DNA of 10,384 bases from Aquificaceae bacterium (GTDB taxonomy: Bacteria > Aquificota > Aquificia > Aquificales > Aquificaceae). Numbering within the stretch: position 1 is the stretch's first letter; the number at the start of each line of letters is the position of its first letter. The stretch spans positions 1 through 10,384 of the forward strand of contig JALSTO010000202.1 of NCBI GenBank assembly GCA_026983685.1, written 5' to 3'. The notes beneath the pieces are model-generated. The model made no database searches and was not told where the DNA came from. It was given only the letters and a program-made list of their open reading frames with translations. Shown here one piece after another: positions 2,905 to 10,384 of this stretch. A program made the position numbers and the translations under genes.

Positions 2905-3602
2905 GCACATGGGGATTGATAAAGACTGTTTTTTTCACGGCGCTTACGGTCGTCTTCTTCTTCATTATATGGGTAGAGAATCCCTTCACCCACCATGCGG
3001 AGTACGAGATTCCCGAAGAGGCGGAGAAGATAATAAATGACCCAAAGGCTGCGCTTGAAGGTAGAGAGCTCTTCAAACAGAACTGCACCAGCTGTCACTC
3101 CCTCAGGTACGACGGTATTTATCTCATGTCTGTGACCGCAAAGCCCGAGTGGTCAAAGATAGAGAAGACTATGGGAAAACCTTTACTTGAGGAGAAGGAT
3201 GGAAAGATAAGGGTCAAGGGCTACTTCGTTCCAAGGGACGTTTACGAATCGGTTGCTTTTGCTGACCTCCAAGCTCTGAAGGCTTCTTTCGGTAAGATCC
3301 CTCCCGACCTCTCTACAATGTACCTTTCAAGGGGTGCGGGCTATCTCTACAACTTCATATCAGATCCACAGAAGGTTCTTCCGGGAACCTCAATGCCCAA
3401 GCTCTTCTTCCCCGAATACGACAAAGAAGCTCCCCAGAAAGTTGCCAAGATAGTAGCCTACATGAGGTCCGTGAACGAGCCTCCTCCCGGTGAGAAGGCA
3501 AAGAGGGCTCTGATGGGAGTTGTGACCATTGCCTACTTCATAGGCATGGGTGCCCTTCTGTGGCTCTACAGGAAAAAGGTGGTTGCTTCTATGAAGCACT
3601 AA
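2901..3602 (+). CDS. petC: Cytochrome c1 subunit of cytochrome bc1 complex
   Basis: The protein is 233 residues counted from the ATG at 2901. That start overlaps the petB stop (ATGA) and has GGGAGG about 7 bases upstream; an upstream ATG at 2868 would lie inside petB and is not preferred. One heme c site, CTSCH, sits at 62-66, and Met165 in PGTSMPKLFF is the likely sixth ligand. GKIPPDLS at 131-138 is a common c1/c-type signature. There are two hydrophobic segments, at about 7-23 (signal anchor) and 205-222 (C-terminal anchor followed by basic residues), so the heme domain sits in the periplasm. It accepts electrons from the Rieske protein and hands them to a soluble cytochrome c. It is monoheme, and no second CXXCH exists. 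Confidence 0.95.
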   Translation: MSTWGLIKTVFFTALTVVFFFIIWVENPFTHHAEYEIPEEAEKIINDPKAALEGRELFKQNCTSCHSLRYDGIYLMSVTAKPEWSKIEKTMGKPLLEEKDGKIRVKGYFVPRDVYESVAFADLQALKASFGKIPPDLSTMYLSRGAGYLYNFISDPQKVLPGTSMPKLFFPEYDKEAPQKVAKIVAYMRSVNEPPPGEKAKRALMGVVTIAYFIGMGALLWLYRKKVVASMKH

Positions 3603-4000
3603 AGCTCGGGTGCCCACCCGAGCCTCACCTTCTTAAACTTGACCGTCGCTGTCATGTAGCAGACCCTTCCCTTCTCAATCAGACCGCACTTCCTCAAGAG
3701 ATCGTTTAGCATGAATATCTTTAAAAAGAGCTTTAGGTTTTTCAGGTCCTTTTCCTTTCCAAGCTCCTTCTTTAGCTCTCCCTCAAACCATGATAGGTTC
3801 TCCCTGAACCTTATACCATACTTTATCTGGGCTACATAAGTCTCGTCATCTATTTTGATCATGTTTATAAGTCTTACATCAACCACATCTCCGAACCATC
3901 GGTACCTTCCTTCAAGGGCGTTTTTGACATCCTTTATCTGAGGTCTGCTTTCGCAGGACAGGAGCAGGAGGAAGAGAAAGGGTAAAAGCTTTCTTATCAT
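3599..4000 (-). CDS. Small putative lipoprotein of unknown function
   Basis: The protein has 133 residues and I do not recognise its family. The N terminus is a lipoprotein signal: MIRK, a Leu/Phe-rich core, then LLLLSC with the lipidated cysteine at position 16, so the mature chain starts at Cys16 and is membrane-anchored in the periplasm. The rest is a small, charged, alpha/beta-looking domain (VVDVRLINMIKIDDETYVAQ) followed by a Lys/Leu-rich helix (about 72-104). Two further cysteines, Cys105 and Cys114 (KCGLIEKGRVC), could form a disulfide. The ribosome site upstream is weak. Its stop (3599-3601) overlaps the petC stop in the opposite direction, and its start faces away from the binding-protein gene at 4056. 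A link to the bc1 complex is only positional. Real-gene status rests on the clean lipobox and the lack of a competing frame. Confidence 0.75.
   Translation of the reverse strand: MIRKLLPFLFLLLLSCESRPQIKDVKNALEGRYRWFGDVVDVRLINMIKIDDETYVAQIKYGIRFRENLSWFEGELKKELGKEKDLKNLKLFLKIFMLNDLLRKCGLIEKGRVCYMTATVKFKKVRLGWAPEL
3604..3623. terminator. GC-rich hairpin at the petC/lipoprotein convergence
   Basis: GCTCGGGT-GCCC-ACCCGAGC is a perfect 8-bp stem with a 4-base loop, beginning 2 bases after the petC stop. It is followed on the plus strand by a pyrimidine-rich but not pure T tract (CTCACCTTCTT). It also encodes the last residues of the minus-strand lipoprotein (about Gly128 to Leu133). A bidirectional or plus-strand terminator is likely; the weak T tract keeps this below certainty. 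Confidence 0.6.
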
Positions 4001-4022
4001 GGTGATTAGTCTAACTTATGTT
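3994..4022 (+). promoter_or_regulatory. Weak sigma-70-like promoter candidate for the sensor operon
   Basis: TTATCA (3994-3999) and TATGTT (4017-4022) are separated by 17 bases and match the -35 and -10 consensus at four of six positions each. They lie ahead of the gene starting at 4056 and partly inside the divergent lipoprotein start. The match is modest and could be chance; no other promoter is apparent in this 55-base gap. Confidence 0.25.
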
Positions 4023-4055
4023 CGGTGCGGAGGATAAGGAGTTATATTTTCCCTG

Positions 4056-5021
4056 ATGAGGTTTCTGTTTTTGCTTCTGCCCTTCTTATTACTTCTCGGG
4101 TGTGAGGTTGGCAAGAAAGAAAGCTACAGAATAGCTGTTTTCATCTCGGGAGAGGGGAGGATGGGGAAAGTAAAGGGCTTTCAGGAAGGTCTTAAGAACC
4201 TCGGTCTTGAGAAGGTTGCCTACGACCTCTACGAAGGCGATAACACCCTGAGCAGGATGAGAGAGCTTGCTCAGGAGCTTGCCCTCAGAGAGGAGGAGTA
4301 CGACCTTATAGCGGTGGGGGGTAGCTTAGAGGCTTACATGATAAAGGAGGCTTCGGGCAAGCTAAAGACTCCCGTTGTGATACTCGGAGGGACGAGCATA
4401 CTCCAATGGGGACTCACAAAGAGCCTTTCAAACCCTTCTGAGAACATAACCGGAGTTGATAACCTCAACGCGGAGCTGATGGAGAAGAGGGTTGAGCTCT
4501 TCACAAAGATGTTTCCCAACATAAAGAAGGTGCTCGTTTTCTGCAACCCCCAGTTTGAGGCATCAAAGAACGCAACTAAGATAACCATAAGGGCAGGAAA
4601 GAAGTTCGGTATAAAGGTTGTCCCCCTGAACGTAAAGGACGTAAAGGAGCTTGAGTACATAATCAGCCACATGAAGGAGGACGGCTACAGGGCGATAATA
4701 ATAACCCCCTGCTTCTACACTGAGAACTTCCTCACAACCTACATACTCCACTACGCCAATTTCCACCAGATACCTGTCTTCTGCCACTCTCCCGGGCTCG
4801 TTAAGAAGGGATGCCACGTAGCCTATGGAACATCTGGATACGAACAGGGCTTTCAGGCTGCCCACATAGCCTACAAGATACTCAACGGCACTCCGGTAAA
4901 GCACGTTCCCTTTGAAAGGGCTTACTACCCCCGGTTGGCGGTTAACGAGACAGCCCTTACAGAGCTCGGTGTGGGCTACAACAGAGAGTTCTTCACATAC
5001 GTTGATGAGGTGGTCAAATGA
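4056..5021 (+). CDS. Lipid-anchored periplasmic substrate-binding protein (ABC_sub_bind-like)
   Basis: The protein has 321 residues. A lipoprotein signal ends at LLLLGC, with Cys16 lipidated. The rest matches the two-lobed ABC_sub_bind (DUF534-like) binding-protein fold: RIAVFISGEG opens lobe 1, NITGVDN at about 130-136 is followed by EKRVELFTKMFPNIKKVLVFCNP, and the family motif region VAYGTSGYEQGFQAA is at about 255-269. No permease or ATPase gene lies nearby. Instead the TGA overlaps the ATG of a sensor kinase (ATGA at 5018), which suggests that it acts as the periplasmic detector for that kinase. Cysteines at 163, 219, 243 and 253 are unusual, and two are CH pairs (243-244 and 253-254). 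AGGAG at 4037-4041 is 14 bases from the ATG, a rather long gap. The ligand is unknown. Confidence 0.8.
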   Translation: MRFLFLLLPFLLLLGCEVGKKESYRIAVFISGEGRMGKVKGFQEGLKNLGLEKVAYDLYEGDNTLSRMRELAQELALREEEYDLIAVGGSLEAYMIKEASGKLKTPVVILGGTSILQWGLTKSLSNPSENITGVDNLNAELMEKRVELFTKMFPNIKKVLVFCNPQFEASKNATKITIRAGKKFGIKVVPLNVKDVKELEYIISHMKEDGYRAIIITPCFYTENFLTTYILHYANFHQIPVFCHSPGLVKKGCHVAYGTSGYEQGFQAAHIAYKILNGTPVKHVPFERAYYPRLAVNETALTELGVGYNREFFTYVDEVVK

Positions 5022-6976
5022 GGCTCTCTCTGAAGGCAAGGGTTATCCTGCTCCTTTCCATACTTACCCTCATACCTATTGCCCTCTTCTTCTACCACAA
5101 CTCAGCGATGAGGGAGAAGATACTCCAGGACAGGCTCAGGTTCAACAGTCTTTACGCTTCCTCGGTGGTGAGTAGGGTAGAGCTCTTTTTGGAAAGGGTT
5201 ATGTCCGAGACGAGCTCTCTCGTATATCTTTACAGGAACTTCGGTTTTTCGGAGGAGGAGATAATCTGGAGGGTAACGGGACATGTCAGAGGAATATTTG
5301 AAGGGGCGTTTTACTCCCCCGATGGAATACTGATGACATCGGTGAGCAGGGAGTTATCCGAACCGAAGTTTGATAAGTTTGTAGAGCTAAAAAGCTCAAA
5401 GAGGATACTCGGCATCCTGTACACCCAGTACAAGGAGCCCTTTCTAAGAATAGTCGTTCCCGACGTTGAGGATGGAGTTCTCAGGGGTTACTTCCTCTTT
5501 TCCCTTGACCTTTCCCTCTTCTGGCAGTCGGTTGTGTCCGCAAAACCCTCGCCCAGCGTTGAGGTCTTCCTTGCAGACGAGAAGGGGAACGTCCTTGCCT
5601 TCAGCGATATGAGGTTCTCCGAAAGAAGAAGGATACCCTTCCGGAAGGGTCTCTACAGGTCCTCCCTAACTGGCACCGACGTTGTGGGCGTATATACGAA
5701 GAGCGAGGACGGAAAGTGGGTAGTCTTCGTTGAAGAGCCTGTCAACACCGTCCTCAAGCCTCTCTACAGCTTCCAGCAGAAGGCTCTCGTTGCGGGCTCT
5801 CTCTTCGTTCTGAGCGGGGGCGTTTTTGCCATATTTGTCTTTCTGAGGATATTCAAGCCCCTTGAGAACCTGAAGAACTACATCATCTCTTGGGAGGAGG
5901 AGAACATAAGAAAGCCTATTGAGTCCGGGGACGAGGTCAGTGAGCTATCTCAGGCTTTTGAGAACCTGATAAGAAAACTTCAGGAGGAGAGAAAGCTCTA
6001 CTTCTCTCTCTTTGAGAACACCTTGGACGGAATAGTTGTCTTCAATTCGGAGAAAAGGGTTATAGACGTAAACAGAACTATCCTTGAGCAGTTCGGTATA
6101 GATAGAGAGGACATAATAGGCAAGAGGATGTCAGAGCTTATAGGTGAGGATCTTCCCTTCAAAAGTCTCTTCTTCACTGAAAGAAAGGTCAAACTCAAGG
6201 AGGAGGTCTTCTGTCAGCTGAGGCAGGAGGTTCTGAAGATTGAAGGAAGTCTATACGTCCTCTGGAGGCTGAGGGACGTATCAAAAGAGAAGGAGCTTAG
6301 CATTCTCCTTGAACAGACAGCCAAGCTATCCCTTGCGGGTGAGATAGCCTGCTCGGTAGCCCACCAGATAAACAATCCCCTCGCCTCAATAATGGGCTAC
6401 TCGGAGAGCCTGCTCTTGAGTGCCAAGGATGAGGAAGTCAGGAAAAAGGCACAGGTGATATTCAAACAGGCTCAGAAGTGTGCGGAGACGGTGAGAAAAC
6501 TCCTTGACGTCGGCAAACCCTTTGAAGGAAAGCCTGACCATGTAAAGCCTGAGGAGATTACCGTTGAGGCTATAAACATGCTCTCCCCTAAAGCGAAGCG
6601 AAAAGGTGTGAGAATTGAGTTTGAGAGCTCCCTTAACGGAGAGAGGATATTCACCTTCCCCTGGCAGATTGAGCAGGTCCTCATAAACATAGTGGACAAC
6701 GCCATTGATGCGGCTTCGGGAGGTGGTAGGGTTAAAGTCAGTCTCTACAAGGAGGGTTCACGGGTCGTTTGGAGGGTTGAAGACAACGGACACGGTATAG
6801 AAAGGGAGGAGCTTGAAAGGATATTCAAGCCCTTTTATACTACAAAGCCCTACGGGACAGGCCTGGGACTCCCTCTTGCGAGGAGGTTTATTGAGAACCT
6901 CGGCGGTGAGTTGAAGGTTAGAAGCGAGCCCGGAAGGGGTACGGTTGTTGAAATATACATAGGAGAGGGGAAATGA
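5018..6976 (+). CDS. Membrane sensor histidine kinase (sensor-TM-HAMP-PAS-HisKA-HATPase)
   Basis: The protein has 652 residues. A first membrane helix at about 8-26 and a second at 255-276 bracket a periplasmic sensor domain of about 225 residues, possibly Cache-like. Next come a HAMP linker (about 277-327), a PAS domain (about 329-425, with LFENTLDGIVVFNSEKRVID) and the HisKA region, where His449 in AHQINNPL is the phosphorylated residue. The ATPase domain shows the N box (NIVDNAIDAA, 557-566), DNGHG (589-593) and GTGLGL (613-618). NtrB/AtoS-type kinases usually have Glu after the His; here it is Gln450. Overlaps of ATGA with the genes on both sides mark one coupled operon. The partner is surely the adjacent activator, and the binding protein upstream probably presents the signal to its periplasmic domain. 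Confidence 0.92.
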   Translation: MRLSLKARVILLLSILTLIPIALFFYHNSAMREKILQDRLRFNSLYASSVVSRVELFLERVMSETSSLVYLYRNFGFSEEEIIWRVTGHVRGIFEGAFYSPDGILMTSVSRELSEPKFDKFVELKSSKRILGILYTQYKEPFLRIVVPDVEDGVLRGYFLFSLDLSLFWQSVVSAKPSPSVEVFLADEKGNVLAFSDMRFSERRRIPFRKGLYRSSLTGTDVVGVYTKSEDGKWVVFVEEPVNTVLKPLYSFQQKALVAGSLFVLSGGVFAIFVFLRIFKPLENLKNYIISWEEENIRKPIESGDEVSELSQAFENLIRKLQEERKLYFSLFENTLDGIVVFNSEKRVIDVNRTILEQFGIDREDIIGKRMSELIGEDLPFKSLFFTERKVKLKEEVFCQLRQEVLKIEGSLYVLWRLRDVSKEKELSILLEQTAKLSLAGEIACSVAHQINNPLASIMGYSESLLLSAKDEEVRKKAQVIFKQAQKCAETVRKLLDVGKPFEGKPDHVKPEEITVEAINMLSPKAKRKGVRIEFESSLNGERIFTFPWQIEQVLINIVDNAIDAASGGGRVKVSLYKEGSRVVWRVEDNGHGIEREELERIFKPFYTTKPYGTGLGLPLARRFIENLGGELKVRSEPGRGTVVEIYIGEGK

Positions 6977-8304
6977 GGATTCTCGTTGTTGAGGACGATG
7001 GGGACTTCAGAGAGCTTCTCGTTGAGCACTTTCAGGGACTTGGCTATCAGGTTGATGGAGCCCCTGACAGAGAAGAAGCCTACGAGCTCCTTGAGGAGAA
7101 GGATTACTCCGTTGTACTCCTTGACCTATTCCTTCCCGATGGCAACGGCATGGAGATACTGGAGTGGATAAGGGAGAACTCACCTCTAACGGAGGTTCTC
7201 GTAATAACAGGGCACGGGACAATAAAGACCGCAGTTGAGGCTATGAAGCTTGGAGCATACGACTTTCTGACGAAGCCCTGCTCTCTCAGGGAGGTTGAGA
7301 TAACGGTAAGGAAGGCGCTTGAGTCCAGAGGTATAAAGAGGGAGAACCTACTTTACAGGAAGGAGAAGGACCTTTCCCTTGACTACCTGGGTTTTGTTTT
7401 CCAGAGTAAGGCGATGCTTGAGGTGGTGAGTCGGATTGAAAGGATCGCATGCTCGGACTGCCCCGTCCTTATAACGGGAGAGTCGGGTGTGGGAAAGGAG
7501 GTTGTGGCAAACCTGATCCATCGCAAGAGTGAAAGGGCTGACAGACCCATGGTATCCCTGAACATCGCCTCAATACCGAAGGAGCTCATGGAGGCTGAGC
7601 TCTTTGGCTACGAGAAGGGAGCTTTCACCGGTGCGGACAGAGGAAAGGAAGGCTTCTTTGAGCTTGCGGACGGAAGCACCCTCTTTCTTGATGAGATAGG
7701 AGAGATGGAGCTGTCCCTTCAGGCAAAGCTCCTGAGGGTGTTGGAGACCAAAAGGTTTTACAGATTAGGTGGGAGGAGAGAGATAGAGAGCGATGTTAGG
7801 GTAATAACCGCTACAAACAGGGACCTGAAGAGGCTCGTCAAGGAGGGAAAGTTCAGGGAAGACCTGTACTACAGACTCAACGTTGTTGAGATAAACATCC
7901 CGCCTCTGAGGGAAAGGAAGGAGGATATACTACCTCTCGCCTACCACTTCCTGAACCTCTTCAACAGGAAGTACTCAAAGAGAATAAAAGGATTCTCCGC
8001 GGAAGCTGAAGAACAGCTCCTTTCCTACCCATGGTACGGGAATGTGAGGGAGCTTAAGAACATGGTGGAGAGGGCGGTTCTCTTCTGCGATTCTGGTGAG
8101 ATAGGAACGGAGGACATCTCCTGCCTCTTTACCCATAGAGAAGGTGAGGGCAAGAAGGAGTTCAAGACCATAAAGGACCTGGAGAGAGAGTACATAGTGG
8201 AGGTACTCAGACAGGTAAACTTTAACAAGAGAAAAGCCGCCCAGATTTTAGGCATACCCCTCAGGACCTTCTACCGCAAGCTTGAGAGCTACGGTATAAA
8301 GTGA
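6973..8304 (+). CDS. NtrC-family sigma-54-dependent response regulator
   Basis: The protein has 443 residues in three parts. The receiver (about 1-115) has the acidic pair Asp8/Asp9, the phosphorylated Asp51 (LLDLFLPDGNG), Thr79 and Lys101. The AAA+ domain (about 140-370) has Walker A GESGVGKE (169-176), the sigma-54-contacting loop GAFTGA (216-221), Walker B LFLDEIGEM with Asp240/Glu241, and the arginine-finger region REDLYYRLNV (295-304). The Fis-type helix-turn-helix (about 400-443) has NKRKAAQILGIPLRTFYRKL. All key residues are intact, so it should open sigma-54 promoters when phosphorylated by the preceding kinase, whose stop overlaps its ATG. Two tandem dyad sites and a -24/-12 promoter begin right after its stop codon, so its likely target is the following DsrE-porin operon. 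Confidence 0.96.
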   Translation: MRILVVEDDGDFRELLVEHFQGLGYQVDGAPDREEAYELLEEKDYSVVLLDLFLPDGNGMEILEWIRENSPLTEVLVITGHGTIKTAVEAMKLGAYDFLTKPCSLREVEITVRKALESRGIKRENLLYRKEKDLSLDYLGFVFQSKAMLEVVSRIERIACSDCPVLITGESGVGKEVVANLIHRKSERADRPMVSLNIASIPKELMEAELFGYEKGAFTGADRGKEGFFELADGSTLFLDEIGEMELSLQAKLLRVLETKRFYRLGGRREIESDVRVITATNRDLKRLVKEGKFREDLYYRLNVVEINIPPLRERKEDILPLAYHFLNLFNRKYSKRIKGFSAEAEEQLLSYPWYGNVRELKNMVERAVLFCDSGEIGTEDISCLFTHREGEGKKEFKTIKDLEREYIVEVLRQVNFNKRKAAQILGIPLRTFYRKLESYGIK

Positions 8305-8305
8305 G

Positions 8306-8318
8306 TGCCAATCTGGCA
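8306..8318. promoter_or_regulatory. Upstream activator site 1 (inverted repeat)
   Basis: TGCCA-ATC-TGGCA is a perfect inverted repeat beginning one base after the activator's stop codon. Its centre is about 121 bases ahead of the predicted transcription start, a usual distance for NtrC-type enhancer sites. A near-identical copy follows 20 bases downstream. Confidence 0.75.
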
Positions 8319-8325
8319 AAGGTAT

Positions 8326-8338
8326 TGCCGATCTGACA
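8326..8338. promoter_or_regulatory. Upstream activator site 2 (degenerate copy)
   Basis: TGCCGATCTGACA repeats site 1 with two changes. With the trailing AAAGG the match is 15 of 17 bases. The 20-base period puts both copies on the same face of the helix, about two turns apart, as expected for two dimers of an activator binding side by side. Its centre lies near -101. Confidence 0.7.
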
Positions 8339-8406
8339 AAGGATATCAGGAAGAAATCCAGGGCTCAAAATCCGTAAGTTCTTGACATTCATCGCCTTTC
8401 CGTCTT

Positions 8407-8422
8407 CGGCACGAAATTTGCA
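8407..8422 (+). promoter_or_regulatory. Sigma-54 (-24/-12) promoter
   Basis: CGGCACGAAATTTGCA fits the consensus TGGCACGNNNNTTGCW in all but the first base. GG is at 8408-8409 and GC at 8420-8421, with exactly 10 bases between them as required. The predicted start is near 8433, leaving a short leader with a strong AAGGAGG ribosome site ahead of the ATG at 8456. A cognate sigma-54 activator is encoded immediately upstream. Confidence 0.88.
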
Positions 8423-8455
8423 ACAAAAGCAGTAAAACCAAAGGAGGTAGGAGTT

Positions 8456-8959
8456 ATGGACAGGAGAGATTTCTTTAAGTTCGGAGCAGCGGCAATGTCA
8501 GTGCCTATACTCAGCACAGTTGCCTCAGCAAAGAACGTGAGGCTTAGCTTTGACGACCTCAAGAAGGAGGCTAAGGTAAACGTCATATACCATGCGGACT
8601 TTCCTCAGGAGAAGAGGTTCAAGACCATGCTCAGGAACATCACCAACCACCTCTCCGTTTACGACTTTGACCCCTTCAAGATAAAGATAGTGGTGGTATC
8701 TCACGGAGCGGGTGGAAAGTTCATGCTCAAGGACCTGAGAGGTACCAAGTGGGCTAAGGAGCCCATAGACCAGAAGGCTCTCAGGATAAAGATGGAGGAG
8801 CTCCTTCAGTACGGGGTTGAGTTTTACCTCTGTGGTATCACGGTCAAGAGGGCAAAGCTTGCAGGTAAGCTCTACGACTTTGTGAAGATAGTTCCCTCGG
8901 GAGTCGGAACCGTTGCCCATCTTCAGACCTTGGGCTATGCCTACATAAAGGTTCAGTAA
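8456..8959 (+). CDS. Tat-exported DsrE/DsrF-like protein
   Basis: The protein has 167 residues. The start MDRRDFFKFG is a twin-arginine signal, followed by a hydrophobic stretch (11-24) and an AxA-type cleavage region (ASA, about 23-25), so the mature protein probably folds in the cytoplasm before export to the periplasm. The remainder resembles the DsrE/DsrF/YchN small alpha/beta fold: VNVIYHADF opening strand, KIVVVSHGAGGKFML, then KMEELLQYGVEFYLCGITVKR, with the single cysteine Cys126 at the place where sulfur-carrying DsrE proteins hold their active cysteine, and finally VPSGVGTVAHLQTLGYAYIKV. Members of the family bind or relay sulfane sulfur, usually in the cytoplasm, so a Tat-exported version is notable. 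It is the first gene after the sigma-54 promoter, has AAAGGAGGTAGGAG just upstream, and is 20 bases from the porin gene. Confidence 0.85.
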   Translation: MDRRDFFKFGAAAMSVPILSTVASAKNVRLSFDDLKKEAKVNVIYHADFPQEKRFKTMLRNITNHLSVYDFDPFKIKIVVVSHGAGGKFMLKDLRGTKWAKEPIDQKALRIKMEELLQYGVEFYLCGITVKRAKLAGKLYDFVKIVPSGVGTVAHLQTLGYAYIKVQ

Positions 8960-8979
8960 TCTCATAAAGGAGGGGAAGC

Positions 8980-10384
8980 ATGAGGAAGTTAGCTCTCACA
9001 GGAGTGGCACTTGGAACTTTGGCCGTTTTTACGCCCGATACCTCCCACGCTATAAGGGTATGGAGTGCCTCAACCCAGCAGTTCCTTGATATCAACTTCC
9101 TGATCCAGACCTGGTTCAGGTACCAGAAGATAGACGACAAAAACAGACCTAACTTTATAAAGGCTCCCAGCGGTAACTTTGACACCTCCTTCAGGAGGAT
9201 AAGATTCAGGCTCGGAGGCAGTTACAACAAGTACTTCAAGTTCAACTTCGTCATGAGGCTCAATAACACCGGAAGAGATGCCTACATAGCTCCCTTTGGG
9301 GGACAGCCTCCGGGCTACCTCAGACAGGGAGGACTCCTTGGAGGAAGGAACTTCGCCCTCCACGAGCTTGACTTAAAGTTTGCCCTTCACAACATGTTTG
9401 AGTCTAAGGGCTGGATAATTGACGCTCACCTTGGTTTCCCCAGAATTCCTCTGGGTAGGGAACAGTATGGAAGGACTGGCTTTGACAACCTTGAGTCCGA
9501 CAGGACCTTTGCCACTCTCCGGTGGACCCATCTCACGGTTGCAAACGTTACGGGAAGAGCTTACGGTGGTTTCATCCACGTCAGAAAAGGCAACAAGGCA
9601 AAGGGTTTCAGGAGGATAACCTGGGACGGATTCGTAGGTGTCTTTGACGGCTTCAAAGGTATAGAACAACCTTGGGATGAGACAGCGAGGGTAGGAAATA
9701 CAGGAAGTGTTGATCCTGCCTGCACAAGCGGTACGGCTTTTGCAAAGTGTCTTTCCCAGCTCAGAAGCAATTCAAAGGATTCTTTCCTATACACCTTCAG
9801 GACAACCCTTATGCTCGGGAAACCGGAAGGAAAGCCTAAGGGCCTCAATTGGCTTTACAGGGACACCTACCTTGGGAAGAGAAAGGGTATTACCATAGGT
9901 CTGTCCTACGCCATGCAGAACAACATAGACCAGGAGCTTATAACTGATGTTCAGGGACCAGCGCCTGGAGTTAAGGGGAATGGTAATCTTCAACCGGGTG
10001 CAGGTTCTGTTCAGGTCAGGGTTCCCTATATGATTCTCCCCAATCCAATAGCCGCCTTTAGCAACGTTGCAAACCACCCAGTTGACATGCAGATGTACGG
10101 AGCGGACATTGCCATTCACTACGGACCTCTGACGCTCATAGGTGAATTTGGACAGCATCAGTTCAAAGGTGTCTGGCTCTCCAACTCAAATCCGAGTGAG
10201 GACTTTAAGAACAAGTGGCTTATCCTCAAAGGTGCTTGGGTTATAAATCCCAGTAGTGTCCATCTATGGGAACCGTATGTCAGCTACTATGAGTGGAATC
10301 CTGATATAAAGGAAGCTCCCTGTTCAGGAGGTAATGTCTGTGCTTACGGGGATGCCGCTAACTTCATAAAGAAGAACAAATGGC
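8980..10384 (+). CDS. Outer-membrane porin-like beta-barrel protein, C-terminally cut by window end
   Basis: The frame is open from the ATG at 8980 to the last base: 468 codons with no stop. A signal peptide (MRKLALTGVALGTLAVF, cleavage near SHA at 22-24) is followed by alternating hydrophobic and aromatic strands rich in Arg, Phe and Gly, for example RRIRFRLGGSYNKYFKFNF and WIIDAHLGFPRIPLG. This pattern resembles the phosphate-selective porin O/P family. Two close cysteine pairs, Cys248/Cys257 (PACTSGTAFAKC) and Cys448/Cys454 (CSGGNVC), are placed in what look like surface loops and could form disulfides. AAAGGAGGGG sits about 5 bases ahead of the ATG, and the gene is 20 bases after the DsrE-like gene, so the two probably share the sigma-54 promoter. 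The transported solute cannot be told from sequence. Confidence 0.82.
   Translation, partial: MRKLALTGVALGTLAVFTPDTSHAIRVWSASTQQFLDINFLIQTWFRYQKIDDKNRPNFIKAPSGNFDTSFRRIRFRLGGSYNKYFKFNFVMRLNNTGRDAYIAPFGGQPPGYLRQGGLLGGRNFALHELDLKFALHNMFESKGWIIDAHLGFPRIPLGREQYGRTGFDNLESDRTFATLRWTHLTVANVTGRAYGGFIHVRKGNKAKGFRRITWDGFVGVFDGFKGIEQPWDETARVGNTGSVDPACTSGTAFAKCLSQLRSNSKDSFLYTFRTTLMLGKPEGKPKGLNWLYRDTYLGKRKGITIGLSYAMQNNIDQELITDVQGPAPGVKGNGNLQPGAGSVQVRVPYMILPNPIAAFSNVANHPVDMQMYGADIAIHYGPLTLIGEFGQHQFKGVWLSNSNPSEDFKNKWLILKGAWVINPSSVHLWEPYVSYYEWNPDIKEAPCSGGNVCAYGDAANFIKKNKW

Follow-up and report, generated by a model that had tools for sequence, protein, structure and literature searches.

In the window analysed here, the whole 10,384-nucleotide contig C202 (JALSTO010000202.1) of an Aquificaceae genome (338 contigs, 1.48 Mb, 84.6% complete), five genes follow one another rightward and encode a solute-binding lipoprotein, a sensor histidine kinase, a sigma-54 activator, a DsrE-family protein and a porin-like protein. 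By sequence comparison the activator is an ortholog of NtrC1, whose structure serves as a model for sigma-54 activators, and we consider it likely that the lipoprotein, the kinase and NtrC1 form a dedicated circuit acting through a pair of dyads on the sigma-54 promoter of the dsrE-porin operon, with a regulon of essentially this one operon. We propose that the PF04392 lipoprotein would bind an extracytoplasmic ligand and, by likeness to LuxPQ and AioXSR, pass the signal to its partner kinase, which judging from its conserved domains would phosphorylate NtrC1. The activator would then bind two TGYCA-N3-TGRCA dyads, separated by about two helical turns and centred near -120 and -100, a step strongly supported by comparison between genomes, and would drive a -24/-12 promoter, an element present in the sequence, so that a basic porin and a DsrE-like protein destined for export are made. 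The ligand step is much less sure than this regulatory core.

NtrC1 and its candidate enhancer

The window activator carries the Pfam domains Response_reg, Sigma54_activat and HTH_8. A sequence search of solved structures retrieved first 4l4u (617 bits, full length, 64% identical) and also 1ny5 (557 bits), chains which we take to be Aquifex aeolicus NtrC1, followed among full-length-type chains by 3dzd (355 bits), presumably NtrC4; the search output itself labels 1zy2 as NtrC1. The ortholog encoded in the same gene order in another genome (G001) differs from 4l4u by a single residue in the alignment obtained. NtrC1 orthologs were found in 26 of 64 Aquificaceae genomes with 55-100% identity, the next paralogs showing 50% or less, and in all 15 aligned orthologs the receiver Asp51 and the helix-turn-helix segment IPLRTxYR are invariant, the GAFTGA motif being kept except for one GSFTGA. 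A gene for RpoN is present in the window's own genome and in 58 of the 64 genomes.

The dyads TGCCAATCTGGCA and TGCCGATCTGACA, 13 bp each and 20 bp apart, lie between the activator and DsrE genes, and the position of the -24/-12 element sets their centres near -120 and -100 of the inferred start (Table 1). In the 1.48-Mb genome the pattern TGCCNATCTGNCA has two occurrences, which are the dyads themselves, and its reversed control has none. For comparison we collected 49 DsrE places in chosen stretches (at least 39% identity, match start within the first five residues), to which further listed matches could be added, such as a second copy in G014; one place lacking upstream sequence (L068) was dropped, leaving 28 porin-type and 20 other places, with the porin visible in 27 of the 28 as the contig of L075 ends inside DsrE. 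At the porin-type loci a strict dyad was found in 27/28, a strict pair 18-22 bp apart in 17/28 and a strict -24/-12 element in 24/28 (26/27, 17/27 and 23/27 when L075 is left out), whereas none of the three was found at any of the other 20. Shuffled upstream stretches gave a dyad, a pair and a -24/-12 element 9, 0 and 0 times in 560 for the porin-type loci and 1, 0 and 0 times in 400 for the others. The motif counts at the porin-type loci exceed chance. The best-scoring -24/-12 candidate, picked by score, has GG and TTG in 28/28. Since the porin-less DsrE genes are not one clade and some nest among the porin-type ones, in a tree of which 8 of the 26 inner branches are weak, the dyads appear to track the porin operon and not the DsrE lineage. 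The 60 stretches collected hold a single further dyad pair, in L067, where it adjoins an NtrC1 gene at the end of a contig; the corresponding DsrE-porin operon lies on a different contig. The centres of the distal dyads group around -120, -108, -95 and -86, and no exact helical phasing of the enhancer-to-promoter distance was found across the loci. The enhancer was also considered as a single-strand fold and this was rejected, its z of -1.7 being unremarkable.

A model of the dyad pair, derived from sequence only with 18 training sites, was then run on the 64 genomes under stricter filtering, in which weak matches could be missed. At E<=0.01 it returned the dsrE-porin enhancer in 27 genomes, in G020 as a contig-end copy, and one other site; nine of the 27 genomes (G019, G021, G024, G026, G027, G035, G036, G045 and G046) are outside the training set. 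All five dsrE-porin operons that are unlinked from the activator gene have the enhancer, those of G028 and G063 being training sites. NtrC1 and the enhancer occur together in 25 genomes, NtrC1 alone in one, the enhancer alone in two and neither in 36; the corresponding Fisher P of 2e-14 is too good because the genomes are related. The first-pass annotation had supposed that the activator acts on the adjacent promoter, and this is supported by the enhancer in 25 of the 26 NtrC1 genomes, with apparently the same promoter served when the genes are unlinked (5/5). On the genome-wide enhancer sites, the co-occurrence with NtrC1, the unlinked operons and the dyads in 27/28 against 0/20 loci, the view that a single regulator serves essentially one operon is well supported by comparison. 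The lone other enhancer-like site is G051:C4:1549-1577 (E 0.0057).

Several observations weigh against the proposed circuit. In G038, which has NtrC1, the enhancer at the right place reaches only E 0.11, and G062 (96% complete) and G011 (78%) have an enhancer with no detected NtrC1 ortholog. Only 17 of the 28 porin-type loci carry both dyads in strict form, and in a DsrE-porin pair from another family (L116, genome G102) both the dyads and a strict -24/-12 element are absent. Counts across related genomes are not independent. The circuit as a whole is read from sequence comparison, so that binding, expression and ligand stand at the level of prediction, and the lipoprotein cysteines discussed below may be disulfides. 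The two genomes with an enhancer alone would fit another activator binding the dyads, with NtrC1 nearby incidentally; yet the enhancer is found in 25 of the 26 NtrC1 genomes while 36 genomes lack both, the unlinked operons keep it, and the operon of the incomplete G011 begins at a contig end, and we regard such an activator as very improbable. G062, where locus L103 has the enhancer and the operon with no detected NtrC1 or lipoprotein, represents either a true exception or a gap in the assembly.

What makes the arrangement especially useful is that its activator is NtrC1. The first-pass annotation had recognized neither this identity of the activator nor the four invariant cysteines of the binding protein discussed below. 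The available structures were solved for the A. aeolicus protein, to which the window activator is related by full-length orthology, whereas its input and target are proposed here by comparison. NtrC4, not NtrC1, reportedly binds sites upstream of lpxC. In the portions of the literature available to us no input, target or enhancer of NtrC1 was found named; the primary NtrC1 papers and the 2000 paper on A. aeolicus sigma-54 were outside this scope, and an earlier prediction is possible. According to a 2020 review, structural studies of sigma-54 activators were all carried out without their upstream sites (PMC7175178; this and the other papers cited are used for the portions available to us). 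The present proposal would supply this standard structural model with a natural enhancer, a promoter, an upstream sensor pair and a target, and with a choice of 27 homologous enhancers, structures of the activator on its enhancer and the reconstitution of a thermophile signalling chain become testable.

The lipoprotein-kinase pair and the ligand

The lipoprotein matches PF04392 with 297 bits (cut-off 25.9). This family has a single match per genome in 30 Aquificaceae genomes, always in this gene, if the remnants in G002 and G025 are included, and all 26 NtrC1 genomes carry it. When these two short remnants are left out 28 lipoprotein loci remain, and in 27 of them the kinase gene directly follows, the other being cut by a contig end. 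The early view of a binding protein with a kinase partner and no transporter is supported at these loci, and the regular linkage to permease and ATPase genes that would have spoken against it was not seen in the window or among those neighbours that were annotated at the other loci. Among plasmids 69 records matched distant PF04392 relatives and three were opened; their gene tables, which are incomplete, list no permease within 4 kb, and one has an 'ATP-binding protein' of unstated type. A search for relatives of the lipoprotein locus returned 17 loci, all with Aquificota-type titles (Aquificaceae, Aquificota, Aquifex, Hydrogenobacter); we do not claim an absence outside Aquificota because the search peptide patterns are specific to the subfamily. 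In genomes of other families (G112, G113, G071 and G123-G125) weak PF04392 matches lie in longer frames, possibly fused receptors.

The kinase has the Pfam domains HisKA and HATPase_c, and its match to dCache_1 (37.7 bits) is below the cut-off of 45. Such a region could allow the kinase to sense alone, the lipoprotein of the same operon being, for example, a scavenging or storage protein and not a co-receptor. We find this improbable, as the lipoprotein and kinase stay together in 27/28 loci even with the activator elsewhere, the lipoprotein is present in 26/26 NtrC1 genomes, and the double-PDC kinase of LuxPQ senses through its binding protein (PMC8534201). In LuxP-LuxQ and HptA-HptS a separate binding protein signals to a double-PDC (dCache) kinase; the response regulators and targets differ from those described here, where the contact between binding protein and kinase is deduced and the dCache match is below cut-off (PMC8534201). 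The arsenite system AioXSR (PMC5908839) resembles the window in encoding together a binding protein, a kinase and an AtoC/NtrC-type activator, with a target that has an RpoN promoter and, upstream, a conserved site, and with the binding protein outside any transporter. AioX, however, is PhnD-like, whereas the lipoprotein belongs to PF04392 with a TrpX-like fold, and the target is arsenite oxidase there and DsrE with a porin here, AioA not being linked to the module. By analogy, the circuit may work like AioXSR and LuxPQ while being built from other parts.

The mature lipoprotein contains exactly four cysteines at sites invariant in 19 of 19 sequences, which suggests either a thiol-reactive ligand or two disulfides. 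Because of these residues, a thiol-reactive ligand such as reduced or zero-valent sulfur or a soft metalloid is our first guess. Sulfur itself, helped by the cysteines, is an open guess; SoxB was rejected as a hint because its presence in 55 of 64 genomes is uninformative and neither supports nor excludes a sulfur ligand. The closest solved folds are 3lft, which binds L-Trp, and CD0873 (6hni), which binds a ligand, at 19-23% sequence identity, and the four cysteines are present in none of 3lft, 6hni and 3lkv. These TrpX/CD0873-type proteins are amino-acid-type binding proteins, whereas here a kinase gene follows. It is possible, and we advance it tentatively, that the four-cysteine lipoprotein represents a new receptor class, in which an amino-acid-type binding protein has come to sense zero-valent or reduced sulfur or a soft metalloid; it would be the native input of NtrC1, and the single-operon regulon would open a dedicated outer-membrane channel together with a periplasmic persulfide carrier. 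A cysteine-bearing binding protein of this kind may be a sulfur or metalloid receptor in vent and hot-spring bacteria.

Other ligands have to be weighed against this proposal. The four invariant cysteines would also suit a soft metal or metalloid (arsenite, copper, selenite or tellurite) held by them and handled by the porin and DsrE; AioX, from a similar gene set, binds arsenite (PMC5908839), and the porin has a match to ExtI, far sub-threshold at 19 bits against 150, ExtI being tied to selenite and tellurite (PMC5877670). The operon showed no arsenic gene, and AioA is not linked, occurring in 4/26 NtrC1 genomes and 7/38 others, counts on which arsenite oxidation was also rejected as the target; a metal or metalloid ligand seems to us unlikely, albeit the strongest of these competitors. 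The lipoprotein might instead bind an aromatic amino acid or a similar nutrient, like TrpX and CD0873, with its cysteines as structural disulfides in a hot periplasm. The fold neighbours and a match to the NCBIfam TrpX model point that way, as does trpA lying two genes downstream in one genus, genes for tRNA and amino acids being otherwise not linked; the TrpX match of 86 bits is, however, far under the equivalog cut-off of 390, the identity to those structures is low, and a DsrE-porin operon would be an odd answer to an amino acid, so that we give this reading little credence.

The DsrE protein and the porin

The DsrE protein matches PF02635 with 50.6 bits (cut-off 22.7), and Arg3, Arg4 and Cys126 are invariant in 29/29 sequences. 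From what is known of the family, a single conserved cysteine and a twin-arginine signal would fit a putative sulfane-sulfur carrier. No other DsrE-family open reading frame (ORF), as in a DsrEFH complex, is in the gene list of the window, where the next gene encodes the porin, and a PHROGs search with the DsrE protein gave no match. A second DsrE gene with a Tat-type (twin-arginine translocation) signal, about 54-57% identical, is found in the window's own genome (L108:3621-4145, contig C301) and at L109, L110, L111 and L119, with no porin, dyads or strict -24/-12 element; at L108 a helicase-type gene (Helicase_C_2, DEAD) overlaps its end. The DsrE-porin pair of G102 (L116:7816-9917), about 40% identical and from another family of the order, has no lipoprotein match. 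In the window's genus, the porin is followed at L064:11031-12202 by genes for an OsmC-like protein and for tryptophan synthase alpha, OsmC beside DsrE being perhaps noteworthy.

The window porin matched no Pfam family at E<=0.001, and its sole NCBIfam match is the ExtI model. Full-length relatives have 508-525 residues and end in F, and the protein is net basic in 7/7, with charges of +9 to +21 when the first 25 residues are excluded. An anion channel is a reasonable guess and no firmer than that. The model is poor, with a predicted local distance difference test score (pLDDT) of 55.7, and the fold was discarded as an argument for this reason; its top Foldseek matches are OprP and OprO, with other porins scoring closely behind, and Porin_O_P (PF07396) matches one of three porin orthologs tested, at 16.7 bits, below the cut-off of 20.9. 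The ExtH-ExtI pair of Geobacter (PMC5877670) likewise joins a porin-like protein, weakly OprP/OprO-like, to a rhodanese-like protein of sulfur-transfer type; the match is far below cut-off, the partner family is another one, and the ext cytochrome genes are not in this operon.

The OprP/OprO matches, the net basic charge and a Ppx/GppA gene adjoining the porin convergently in six loci tested from four genera would be compatible with phosphate- or polyphosphate-like anions as both signal and cargo of an OprP/OprO-like channel. We judge this quite unlikely, given the low confidence of the porin model, the closeness of other porins, the sub-threshold Porin_O_P match and the fact that the Ppx/GppA gene, on the opposite strand, did not turn up in the genus of the window. 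The Ppx/GppA phosphatase gene is convergent to the porin in L086, L092, L093, L095, L097 and L100, also where the sensor genes are elsewhere, and was not taken as an operon member.

Gene order in the window and across genomes

The first-pass annotation had described a self-contained module of an ATGA-coupled trio, twin dyads, a -24/-12 promoter, a Tat-type DsrE and a porin. This anatomy was confirmed by the ORFs, Pfam and the motif counts (Table 1), the lipoprotein/kinase and kinase/activator ORFs each sharing a 4-bp ATGA overlap. The self-contained character is seen in some genomes only. All five genes form one run in 16 of the 26 NtrC1 genomes. Among these, the contig boundary truncates the porin in three (that of the window, G015 and G021), and in G057 the lipoprotein is split as well as the porin; the porin frame is also split in G001 (L081:10085-11720), through frame changes that reflect sequencing error or real decay. 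Contig ends interrupt the set in four further genomes (G013, G014, G019 and G020), and in G038 one additional ORF separates the DsrE gene from the activator gene. In the remaining five (G024, G026, G027, G028 and G063) the parts are dispersed, the lipoprotein staying with the kinase and the DsrE gene with the porin. Joint decay is found in G025, with a lipoprotein fragment, a DsrE gene with two stops and no NtrC1 ortholog, and G018 and G008, which have no lipoprotein or NtrC1 orthologs, keep the DsrE gene without porin or dyads.

Table 1. Features of the sensor genes, the regulatory region and the dsrE-porin operon in the window
Feature	Coordinates	Strand	Basis or detail
PF04392 (TrpX-like) solute-binding family lipoprotein	4056..5021	+	lipobox Cys16; mature Cys163, 219, 243, 253
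Sensor histidine kinase: periplasmic dCache-like region, PAS, HisKA, HATPase_c	5018..6976	+	Pfam
Sigma-54 activator, NtrC1 ortholog: receiver, AAA+ with GAFTGA, Fis-type helix-turn-helix	6973..8304	+	Pfam, 4l4u match, ortholog alignment
Distal dyad TGCCAATCTGGCA of proposed NtrC1 enhancer	8306..8318	+	
Proximal dyad TGCCGATCTGACA of proposed NtrC1 enhancer	8326..8338	+	
Sigma-54-type -24/-12 element CGGCACGAAATTTGCA (GG-N10-GC)	8407..8422	+	
DsrE-family protein, RR-containing (Tat-type) signal, one conserved Cys126	8456..8959	+	PF02635, conservation
Porin-like outer-membrane protein, 3' end open at contig end	8980..10384	+	ORF, full-length relatives, low-confidence beta-barrel model

A sigma-70 promoter consensus had no match in 8290-8470 or 3580-4080, consensus scans being weak evidence, and no Rfam family was found in the window at the gathering threshold. 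The left part of the window holds flagellar genes and a set for Rieske protein, cytochrome b and cytochrome c1, as judged from their translations only. Between these and the sensor operon, and divergent from the latter, a lipoprotein-like ORF of 133 residues (3599-4000, minus strand) has no Pfam or NCBIfam match; at the corresponding position, four loci from this genus (L063, L065, L066 and L067) have relatives with 39-47% identity.

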